Origin: Oxalobacteraceae bacterium OTU3CAMAD1
Lineage (GTDB): Bacteria > Pseudomonadota > Gammaproteobacteria > Burkholderiales > Burkholderiaceae_D
Assembly: GCA_024123915.1 (NCBI GenBank)
Contig: CP099650.1
Coordinates: 3,224,001 to 3,288,000 of the forward strand
Reading direction: 5' to 3'
Length of the DNA: 64,000 nt
The translations under genes were made by a program, and so were the position numbers. Below the pieces are notes generated by a model. The model did not search any database, was not told the DNA's origin, and was given only the letters and a program-made list of their open reading frames with translations. Positions 42,938 to 45,363 of this stretch are shown here, piece by piece. Numbering within the stretch: the first letter of the stretch is position 1; each line of letters opens with the position of its first letter.

Positions 42938-43068
42938 CCGTTTATTATCGCCCCGGTTATTGCCTTGTGTCTATTGCGTTCAGTACGAGCAATATTTTAA
43001 TTTCGGAATGATAGGAACCTGACATTGACTTCGGGTCGCCGTCGCTCATACTCTCGTTGCACGTCACT

Positions 43069-43082
43069 TTGATCGGGATCAA
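43069..43082. promoter_or_regulatory. Perfect FNR/Anr consensus box
   Basis: TTGATCGGGATCAA matches TTGAT-N4-ATCAA exactly. It lies between the chr pair (divergent, start 42937) and a small + strand gene (start 43110). It is only 28 bp from the small gene's ATG, too close for class II activation, so repression or action on the leftward unit is more likely. Confidence 0.55.
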
Positions 43083-43109
43083 ATATCCCTCAACCTCTTG
43101 CAAAGGATC

Positions 43110-43337
43110 ATGATGAACGCACTCCTATCCCCCCGCCTGGAATCCGTTCCTAAAGCAGATTTCAACCAGCAGCGACACGACGAACGAAGCAGCGCCGTCG
43201 TCGAACGTGGCATTACCGTGCAAGCGAGTTTTAACACCATTTGCGCGATCGAATACATGAAGTCCCACAACGTCGCCCCGCAAGTGATCGAACGGGTGCT
43301 GCTGCATCCGGAGCAACGTCGCAAGGAGCATCATTGA
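43110..43337 (+). CDS. Small hypothetical protein next to an FNR box
   Basis: A 75-residue soluble, helical, basic protein. It has 'ERGITVQASFNTICAIEYMKSHNVAPQVIERVLLHPEQRRKEHH', and that C-terminal half looks conserved in style. No signal or membrane segment. A weak AAGGA ribosome site precedes ATG 43110; the next ATG at 43113 is equally possible. No family is recognised. Confidence 0.6.
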   Translation: MMNALLSPRLESVPKADFNQQRHDERSSAVVERGITVQASFNTICAIEYMKSHNVAPQVIERVLLHPEQRRKEHH

Positions 43338-43431
43338 CTCAGGGATGAACCAAGTTTGTGTTTAGTTATGCACACATCATGTTGACAAGAATTTTTTTAA
43401 AAGAATTTCGTGTAACAATCGATGTAACCGT

Positions 43432-43563
43432 AAGTCGTTGATTTCCAAGGGCTTTAATTTTGCCTTTTGGATGGGCAGTTTGTAGAAAACCGCGTCGTTA
43501 CAGGCTTCCCGCATTGTCAATGGGGTGTTGTCCACATAGATATCCACAGAGGCTGTGGATATC
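43432..43563. repeat. 132-bp element A with DnaA-box-like motifs
   Basis: It contains TTGTCCACA (43528), ATATCCACA (43540) and inverted TGTGGATAT (43554). The last two are the arms GATATCCACAG and CTGTGGATATC of an 11-bp perfect inverted repeat with a 3-nt spacer. It aligns without gaps to 44671-44802 at about two thirds identity by hand count (87 of 132). An AT-rich flank (43381-43431) lies to its left. It is between convergent gene ends. Confidence 0.65.
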
Positions 43564-43589
43564 CAAAAAAGTGCTTAACAATCCGTAAC

Positions 43590-44483
43590 TTAGAGCGACT
43601 TTTTGAGCGGTTGCAAAACGCTGGCCACCACGATGTATGGCGTGGCCGGCTCTTCGAGCGCGCTGACCGTCACGCGCAGGCGCACCTCCTGGCCGTCGCG
43701 GCGCCAGGCGGTGACAACGTCGGTCCAGCTTTCCCTCTCCTTGACCGCTTGCAAAGCATCGGCCAACTGATCCTGCGGGTAGGGCGGCGGATGCAGCAGA
43801 CGCAAGTCGGCGCCGATCAGCTCGTCGCGCGTGAACTGGAACACGCTGCTGAACTTGTCGTTGACCGTGGCGATTTTGCCGCGCCGGTTCAGGGTCATGA
43901 TGATGGCGTGCTGGTCCACGGCGGCCAGCAGCCGGTGCGCATGATCCAGCTCCGTCTGCAGCGCCACCGTCTGCCGGTGCGCTTCCTCCAAACCATTGTA
44001 GGCGCGCAGCGAAGAGATCACCGTTGTGAACAGTTTGCGCGTGGTCAGGTCGGTCTTGCACCAAAAATCGTTGATGTCGTAGTCGAGGATGATGCTGTGC
44101 TCAAGCGCCTGTCCCGGCTGACCGGTGCGCAGCACGATGCGCACCAGCTGGTTATGCAGCGCGTCGCGGATCTGGCGCGCGACGTTGAGGCCGGCGTCGC
44201 TGGTTTCCATGATGACGTCCAGCAGCACCAGCGCGATGTCGGGCGTGTTGCGCAGGGTATTCAGGGCTTCCTCGCCGCTGTAGGCATGCAGGAAACTGAG
44301 CCGCCGTCCCAGGAAACACACATTACTGAGCGAGAACTTGGTGACCACGTGGACATCGACGTCGTCGTCCACGATCAGTACCCGCCATGGCGGTGGCGCC
44401 GACGACGCTCCCGCCTGCGGCGCGCCGATGGGTGCAACCTCGTCTTCTATCATCCAATCAGTGTCGTCATCATTCTGGTTCAT
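43590..44483 (-). CDS. Response regulator receiver plus PAS protein without output domain
   Basis: A 297-residue protein. A disordered N-terminus (1-32) precedes a receiver (33-155) with the acidic cluster Asp39-Asp41, phospho-acceptor Asp89 ('LLDVIMETSDAG'), 'IVLRTGQPG' and 'YDINDFWCKTDLTTRKLFTTVISSLRAY'. This receiver wording is that of DUF3369-type regulators, usually linked to HD-GYP or GGDEF outputs. Here only a PAS domain (about 180-290, 'RRGKIATVNDKFSSVFQFTRDELIGADLRLLHPP') follows. It may act by protein contact. It is flanked by elements A and B. Confidence 0.85.
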   Translation of the reverse strand: MNQNDDDTDWMIEDEVAPIGAPQAGASSAPPPWRVLIVDDDVDVHVVTKFSLSNVCFLGRRLSFLHAYSGEEALNTLRNTPDIALVLLDVIMETSDAGLNVARQIRDALHNQLVRIVLRTGQPGQALEHSIILDYDINDFWCKTDLTTRKLFTTVISSLRAYNGLEEAHRQTVALQTELDHAHRLLAAVDQHAIIMTLNRRGKIATVNDKFSSVFQFTRDELIGADLRLLHPPPYPQDQLADALQAVKERESWTDVVTAWRRDGQEVRLRVTVSALEEPATPYIVVASVLQPLKKSL

Positions 44484-44670
44484 GCATCAATCCCGAGGCG
44501 AGTCTAAGAAGGCCATGCGTACCTCCAGAGCCACACTATTCCTCACACGTACTTTTGTCAAAGGATTCCCCTGTACGTCGTGACATAGTTGTCTCCGACC
44601 CTACTTATGCACAGAAAAATATTTTTCAAGCAGCCTCAAAAAGCCTGGCCGTCAAAAAATTTGATGTTGT

Positions 44671-44802
44671 AAGTGATTGATTTTATTGGCTAAAAAATCT
44701 GCCTTCGGATTGGGCATTTTATTAAAACCCCCGCCGTTAAAGGCGTTATCGGCTGTCAAGTGGGGGTTATTCACAACCTTATCCACAGTTGGTGTGGATA
44801 TC
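44671..44802. repeat. 132-bp element B with DnaA-box-like motifs
   Basis: It contains TTATTCACA (44767) and TTATCCACA (44779), both matching the DnaA consensus TTATNCACA. An inverted TGTGGATAT follows at 44793, one mismatch from the complement. It is an ungapped, diverged relative of element A. It sits between the end of the membrane-protein gene and the start of the receiver-PAS gene. AT-rich flank at 44600-44670. Confidence 0.65.
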
Positions 44803-44815
44803 TGCGAAATCCGCT

Positions 44816-45205
44816 TTAAATACGCTGGCTTACCGCTGTTTCTTGAGAAACAGCGTAGGCCGCCCCCATCAACACCGCCCAGACCAGAACGGCATGCAGC
44901 GCCAGGGCGCCGCCGACGACTACGTCGGCCTGCTCGGCGGCCAGCGTCATGTAGGCCAGCAGGGCTATCGCCGGTGGCGTGCTGTAGGCTATCAGGCGCT
45001 GAGTGTGGTGAGGCGTACGCCTGGTCAGCATCCGGACCACCGTTCGGCCATCCGCCATCATCCATGTCAGCGCGCCGACCGTGAACAAAGCCCATCCCAG
45101 CATTTCAAAGCCCAGCAGGCCGACGACGTAAGCGAGCACCAATAAAATGCCGCTGAGCGGAAGAGGGCGGACTGCGGTGGCTGGCGTGGACTTTTTCATG
45201 ATCAT
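44816..45205 (-). CDS. Hypothetical small membrane protein
   Basis: A 129-residue protein with about four hydrophobic segments ('GILLVLAYVVGLLGFEMLGWALFTVGALTWMMAD', 'PPAIALLAYMTLAA', 'GGALALHAVLVWAVLMGAAYAVS'). No family is recognised. ATG at 45205 or 45199. It ends 14 bp from element B. Confidence 0.6.
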   Translation of the reverse strand: MIMKKSTPATAVRPLPLSGILLVLAYVVGLLGFEMLGWALFTVGALTWMMADGRTVVRMLTRRTPHHTQRLIAYSTPPAIALLAYMTLAAEQADVVVGGALALHAVLVWAVLMGAAYAVSQETAVSQRI

Positions 45206-45363
45206 ACTCGTTTGGCGGGGCAGGAGTTGTCAGAATACCGGCTCATGGCCTATTGGTATATTTTATTATATCTATGATTTTGATAGCAATTGCCATCGAG
45301 GGTGCCATGTGGCTGCCGGGAAAATCGCCTATGATGGCGCGTTGTTAATTTTTCTCTCGCTGT

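Follow-up and report, generated by a model that had tools for sequence, protein, structure and literature searches.

Paired intergenic elements of an Oxalobacteraceae bacterium look like compact DnaA re-arming sites and recur in many related bacteria

What is known of how chromosomal DNA sites control the DnaA ATP/ADP switch comes mainly from E. coli, where datA is a DnaA-inactivating locus near oriC. For the activating DARS sites, excerpts of PMC5742627 describe a core in which three DnaA boxes, box I being inverted, are spaced alike in DARS1 and DARS2, and report that DARS1 works in vitro without added factors. The DARS2 spacing is described as conserved in E. coli-proximal beta- or gamma-proteobacteria (PMC5742627), the DARS2 core in gamma-proteobacteria related to E. 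coli (PMC4245941), DARS1- and DARS2-like sequences in many proteobacterial species (PMC10380432), and the relative distance of DARS from oriC among E. coli strains (PMC4585315). DARS-like sites outside E. coli are, in other words, already known in outline. Among comparable systems, Bacillus subtilis and Streptomyces have non-origin DnaA-box clusters that restrain initiation (excerpts of PMC5742627). In the MG1655 genome, three-box clusters with a spacing of 14/12 are found at bioD-uvrB (813107+, 813121-, 813133-) and between rppH and mutH (2969135+, 2969149-, 2969161-). Based on gene neighbours and on the description in excerpts of PMC5742627, we take these to be DARS1 and DARS2, and the corresponding sites in the glyY-queG region to be datA.

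Here, we describe two elements, A (43366–43563) and B (44605–44802, both on the plus strand), in a window of 64,000 nucleotides from the chromosome of Oxalobacteraceae bacterium OTU3CAMAD1. Judged from their sequence, they look like the three-site plan of the E. coli DnaA re-arming sites joined to a DNA-bending site, a combination that recurs in many related bacteria. A first-pass annotation of this DNA had put the identity of the pair at about 66%, and an ungapped alignment of 43432–43563 with 44671–44802 indeed yields 87 identities in 132 positions (65.9%), as compared to 34 on average and at most 51 when B was shuffled 2000 times and to 56 for the next best 132-mer on either strand of the window. 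The six DnaA-box-like 9-mers that it had listed and, in A, the inverted repeat of 11 bp are likewise in place. Of the extent it proposed, the 132-bp part stands, yet the true left edge lies 66 bp further left, at a TTATGCACA DnaA box; over the extended 198 bp, 115 positions are identical. Its AT-rich block on the left was understated, as this block holds a perfect IHF consensus in both elements (YAANNNNYTGATW, at 43431–43443 and 44670–44682), of which the whole 64-kb window has only four.

From left to right, A and B follow one plan: a DnaA box (+), an IHF site (-) at offset 65, box III (+) at 162, box II (+) 12 bp further on, and box I (-) another 14 bp on. In A, the left box TTATGCACA (43366–43374, +) is a perfect match to TTWTNCACA, the DnaA box consensus. 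It is followed by TAAGTCGTTGATT (43431–43443, -), which perfectly matches WATCARNNNNTTR, the IHF consensus, and whose columns are near-invariant, and by a TGCC...GGGCA block (43461–43477), with many near-invariant columns across 34 genomes, between the IHF site and the core. The core comprises the DARS-type boxes III (TTGTCCACA, 43528–43536, +; 97 from the IHF start), II (ATATCCACA, 43540–43548, +) and the inverted I (43554–43562, -), with starts 12 and 14 bp apart and box I pointing the other way, which is the layout of E. coli DARS1 and DARS2. B repeats this arrangement with the left box TTATGCACA (44605–44613, +), again perfect, the near-invariant, perfect IHF site TAAGTGATTGATT (44670–44682, -), the TGCC...GGGCA block (44700–44716; conserved columns in the genus alignment), and boxes III (TTATTCACA, 44767–44775, +), II (TTATCCACA, 44779–44787, +) and I (inverted, 44793–44801, -). 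The gap from IHF site to box III is 84 bp in either element. Between A and B lies a gene for a receiver-PAS protein (43590–44483, -), whose PAS domain scores above and whose Response_reg domain scores below the respective cut-off. Further to the left, 43110–43337 encodes a small protein of 75 aa without a match in a Pfam scan; relatives of it occur in 22 of the at least 119 named element loci listed, and also beside elements in the loci L174, L175 and L200.

The elements are strongly conserved within the genus. The first-pass annotation had called for a search of relatives, which we carried out by BLAST on 60 genomes (the own genome, 35 relatives of the same genus and 24 genomes of other families): both A and B flank the receiver-PAS gene in 33 of the 35 relatives. 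A 211-bp query containing A matched with 74–99% identity over at least 200 bp in 22 relatives, more shortly or weakly in 11, and not at this locus in two; the 24 genomes of other families gave short BLAST matches only (best E 0.0097 for A and 3.3e-4 for B). Aligning the 34 genomes that carry both elements (the own and 33 relatives), we find the DnaA boxes and the IHF site to be the most conserved columns: the IHF site plus core boxes have a mean column identity of 0.93, with 30 of 40 columns at 97% or more in A as well as in B, and the spacer between IHF site and core has 0.78 and 0.79. The left box of A is similarly constrained (mean 0.97; 8/9 columns at 97% or more), whereas that of B, where short alignment rows may play a part, is not (mean 0.67; 0/9 columns), which counts against a DARS-type reading. 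The receiver-PAS protein has a tblastn match between A and B in all 34 genomes. This match is partial in some of them: in nine, the alignment covers only the N-terminal 164–196 residues, beyond which the gene seems to be shorter or to differ; in two, about 225–230 residues align.

For wider searches, we used a combined pattern of core boxes III and II plus an exact IHF site, with the gap between IHF site and core fixed to five values. It is present in 60/60 genomes of the genus (own counted), with one to four matches each and none in the control. This includes relative G003, where BLAST did not find the A/B locus (lowest E values 0.03 with A and 0.39 with B), and relative G027, where it gave only a 25-base match there; each of the two has two combined-pattern matches, which in G027 lie beside receiver-PAS and between hemE and priA. 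In a further relative (G012), nine contigs carry a 31-bp piece that matches B around its IHF site at 94%.

A and B are not alone on their chromosome. Two further homologous elements, C1 and C2, are located at 214.4–215.1 kb between priA and hemE, genes named by tblastn agreement with relatives and by reading of the translations. They show the same plan, with a perfect IHF consensus on the box III side and an IHF-to-box III distance of 97 in all four elements. The left box is less rigidly placed, lying 56 (C1) and 67 (C2) from the IHF site, as compared to 65 in A and B, and 153 (C1) and 164 (C2) from box III; box I of C1 is degenerate, and the 14/12 core spacing is common to A, B and C2. With one mismatch allowed, the core pattern finds three cores in this genome, at 214.9, 3267.5 and 3268.8 kb. 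The possibility that the elements might be some common repeat, raised at first sight of the sequence, is countered by the exact IHF-plus-core pattern, which has four matches in the 7.48-Mb genome, namely A, B, C1 and C2. Elsewhere on the chromosome, between an exbD-type and an exonuclease VII gene (6038138–6039194), seven DARS-core-like units are packed into about 1.06 kb, each reading TTGCGCACA-like, 3 bp, TTATCCACA-like, 5 bp and inverted TGTGCAGAA-like, with three perfect IHF consensus sites among them; Tandem Repeats Finder reported no repeat in this array.

How widely is this arrangement distributed? The 35-mer of the core, with up to one mismatch, occurs in 126 of 300 genomes of the order and its reversed control in none. 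The exact IHF-plus-core pattern is found in 57/300 genomes of the order and 69/370 of the class (own counted in each; control 0); its absence from the other 243 and 301 genomes, respectively, weighs against DARS-type function. When the gap was left free, 19 of 34 cores in the order (at 30 loci) had a perfect IHF site 96–99 bp upstream of box III on the same strand. The other 15 had no perfect IHF site at that distance, again a point against a DARS-type reading; in one of the 34, the opposite strand carries an IHF consensus no more than 450 bp away. Among named genomes, the combined pattern marks at least 119 loci with 126 distinct elements, and the genera among the matches listed include Duganella, Massilia, Janthinobacterium, Collimonas, Caballeronia, Achromobacter, Lysobacter, Methylobacter and Nicoletella. 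Both priA and hemE accompany 12 of 30 loci in the order sample; in the class sample of 29 loci, priA is found at six and hemE at none. Of the 126 listed elements, 76 carry the left box on the same strand and one carries it on the opposite strand; 50 lack a perfect one within 110 bp. The distance of the left box from the IHF site falls into bands of 56–58, 64–67 and 75–81, which differ by roughly a helical turn; permuting the 14 distinct distances gave p = 0.002, which is indicative only because the sequences are related.

The excerpts of PMC4245941, PMC5742627, PMC10380432, PMC4585315 and PMC12371093 contain no description of the compact arrangement with an IHF site 97 from the core, of offsets equal to those of datA or of the pairing. 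Similarly, titles and opening lines of abstracts on Burkholderia, betaproteobacteria, Massilia, Pseudomonas/Vibrio, gammaproteobacteria, hemE-priA, P. aeruginosa and Neisseria name no such elements.

The own genome encodes a DnaA whose box-contact residues are conserved, as well as Hda, the two IHF subunits and a protein of the Fis family. Domain IV of DnaA shares 54 of 94 residues with the E. coli protein, including 10 of 11 checked positions. In the AAA+ domain III, 6 of 9 checked positions are as in E. coli and His136, Gln208 and Arg227 are changed, which argues against DARS-type function. IhfA, IhfB and Hda each score above a curated cut-off; the Fis-family protein (77 residues, 40% identity to E. 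coli Fis) falls just below those of two NCBIfam Fis models (117.6 vs 122; 87.6 vs 99). E. coli DARS2 also requires Fis. Between IHF site and core, the best matches to the Fis consensus have three (A) and four (B) mismatches out of 13, which is no clear site, and we regard a Fis site in A or B as unconvincing; across A, B, C1 and C2, the best matches have 3–4 mismatches. Matches with at most two mismatches are present in 9/32 order and 11/29 class elements, as compared to 4% and 7% of shuffles and to 2/32 and 2/29 of the upstream stretches, and in 21 of the 126 named elements listed vs 2.5% of shuffles.

As to chromosomal position, a dif-like site (two mismatches to the dif consensus) occurs once in each of seven complete genomes, at 4.20 Mb in the own one. 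A and B lie 0.53–1.30 Mb from dif, that is, at 65–84% of the way from the dif antipode, itself not a proven oriC, to dif in 7/7 complete genomes; such a constant relative position is what would be expected of DARS. The direction of the boxes relative to the replication fork is the same in all seven, though A and B of the own genome are on the other replichore than those of the six others. The priA-hemE locus is placed 4–7% from the dif antipode in the seven genomes (in G021 by a coordinate from a 25-base match).

We consider A and B to be, probably, DARS-type chromosomal DnaA-switch elements that are activated by IHF, in a compact variant sharing the geometry of datA. The first-pass annotation had thought of a DARS- or datA-like module, and this idea gains support from core orientation and 14/12 spacing equal to DARS1/2, from box-IHF-box offsets equal to datA, from the strong conservation, and from the 65–84% position in seven of seven genomes. 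We put DARS-type activity first because the core geometry is the defining DARS feature that can be tested here and is present in both elements: three boxes at DARS1/2 spacing, with box I in the orientation opposite to that of the other two. Read on the other strand, the A/B core gives (+), 14, (-), 12, (-), as found for DARS1 and DARS2. All three core boxes of A, but only box I of B, deviate by one base from TTWTNCACA, which counts against this assignment; several E. coli DARS boxes are one base off as well. In A, B, C1 and C2, the IHF site is on the box III side as in DARS2, which also shares the core spacing, at a distance other than that of DARS2: the only perfect IHF consensus in the DARS2 stretch examined is about 400 bp from the core, as opposed to 84 bp in A and B. 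For DARS1, the only one in a 6-kb stretch is about 3.3 kb away.

What might such an element do? We infer binding of DnaA and IHF at A and B, release of ADP or nucleotide exchange, and any effect on initiation. On the DARS-type reading, three DnaA molecules, mostly ADP-bound, would load on boxes III, II and I, and the inverted box I would interrupt the head-to-tail run and destabilize ADP binding; apo-DnaA would then depart and reload with ATP. IHF would bend the DNA 84 bp from box III, and the bend would allow a fourth DnaA, on the left TTATGCACA box, to fold back onto the core and control the complex. Situated about three quarters along the replichore, A and B would therefore be copied late and raise ATP-DnaA for the next round, and the priA-hemE pair, near oriC, would be copied early.

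Alternatively, A and B might act as datA-type sites, i.e., IHF-dependent platforms on which ATP-DnaA hydrolyses its ATP and is switched off, with boxes II and I as accessories; we regard this as possible, if doubtful. The box-IHF-box spacing is that of datA and not of DARS2, which counts against a DARS-type reading: in E. coli datA, the IHF site lies between two boxes of like direction, 2 and 3, and the left box (+), the IHF site (-, offset 65) and box III (+, offset 162) of A and B agree with this trio in offset and strand. That box III is 97 from the IHF site in each of the four own elements, and 96–99 from it in 19 of 34 order cores when the gap was not fixed, points the same way, as does the priA-hemE pair, near the probable oriC like E. 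coli datA. However, datA has an inverted box 12 bp further on and is without the direct box II and inverted box I of A and B, and these boxes, so arranged, are among the most conserved parts here. Moreover, A and B lack datA-like closeness to oriC and are found, at 65–84% of the replichore, where datA moved to the terminus reportedly fails in rich medium (excerpts of PMC5742627). In this case, the core has the geometry of DARS and the IHF site and left box that of datA; the two are indistinguishable by sequence. Conceivably, both could be combined in a bifunctional platform, wherein a single DnaA/IHF element with datA geometry and a DARS core switches DnaA off or on depending on IHF occupancy. 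We deem this rather unlikely; if true, E. coli datA and DARS would be two specialized descendants, or convergent halves, of a compact module.

It is unlikely that the elements are simple DnaA titration sites, or promoters controlled by DnaA and IHF (of receiver-PAS at A and B, of priA or hemE at the second pair), leaving the nucleotide state of DnaA unaffected. B does sit upstream of the receiver-PAS start (44483), and this gene is matched between A and B throughout the 34 genomes. Yet A is downstream of it, the fixed three-box layout with its inverted box is unlike the control region of a single promoter, and the element stands beside differing genes: among the at least 119 loci listed, priA or hemE are within the stretch at 38, a receiver-PAS neighbourhood is found at 25, and neither at 56.

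DnaA boxes, an IHF site and AT-rich DNA also look like parts of an origin, but secondary or remnant replication origins are a highly improbable explanation. The stretches sampled have positive GC skew between 1.0 and 4.1 Mb and, from 4.2 Mb, mostly negative skew interrupted by weakly positive values at 6.6, 7.4 and 7.48 Mb; the sign of the skew does not change around 3.27 Mb, and the cumulative skew over 20–660 kb, sampled with gaps, has its minimum at about 0.37–0.42 Mb; A and B are thus not at a skew switch opposite dif. Near this minimum, a duplicated region at 436.4–437.2 kb with an AT-rich stretch, TAG repeats and DnaA boxes is a candidate oriC, about 436 kb from dnaA, which opens the contig; A and B are about 2.83 Mb and the priA-hemE pair about 0.22 Mb away from it. 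We rejected an oriC directly upstream of dnaA, where 4.3 kb hold a single perfect box, and one at priA-hemE, which is off the sampled skew minimum. Remnants of replicon ends, as suggested in the initial annotation, are not supported either, given that the copies are conserved in place, that the seven neighbouring window proteins scanned include no replication gene, and that sampled skew and dif put oriC and terminus elsewhere. As a separate observation, 423007–423364, downstream of an AsnC-type regulator gene, contains a cluster of 11 DnaA-box-like 9-mers with at most one mismatch, which share the same strand.

A structured RNA or unrelated repeat, which could account for conservation over long intergenic DNA, is hardly credible, since an Rfam scan of 43000–45300 gave one sub-threshold match, overlapping neither A nor B, and since the boxes and the IHF site are the most conserved columns. 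The match itself, to sRNA Xoo5 at 44886–45003, is within an open reading frame and probably due to chance.

If A and B are DARS-type elements, as we favour, then the recurrence of such compact, easily recognized sites in Burkholderiales and elsewhere in Gammaproteobacteria sensu lato would make the DnaA switch testable beyond enterics. These sites would also offer a means of asking how activating (DARS) and inactivating (datA) sites relate to each other, and the presence of near-origin and late-replicating loci within one genus would allow dependence on chromosome position to be tested.
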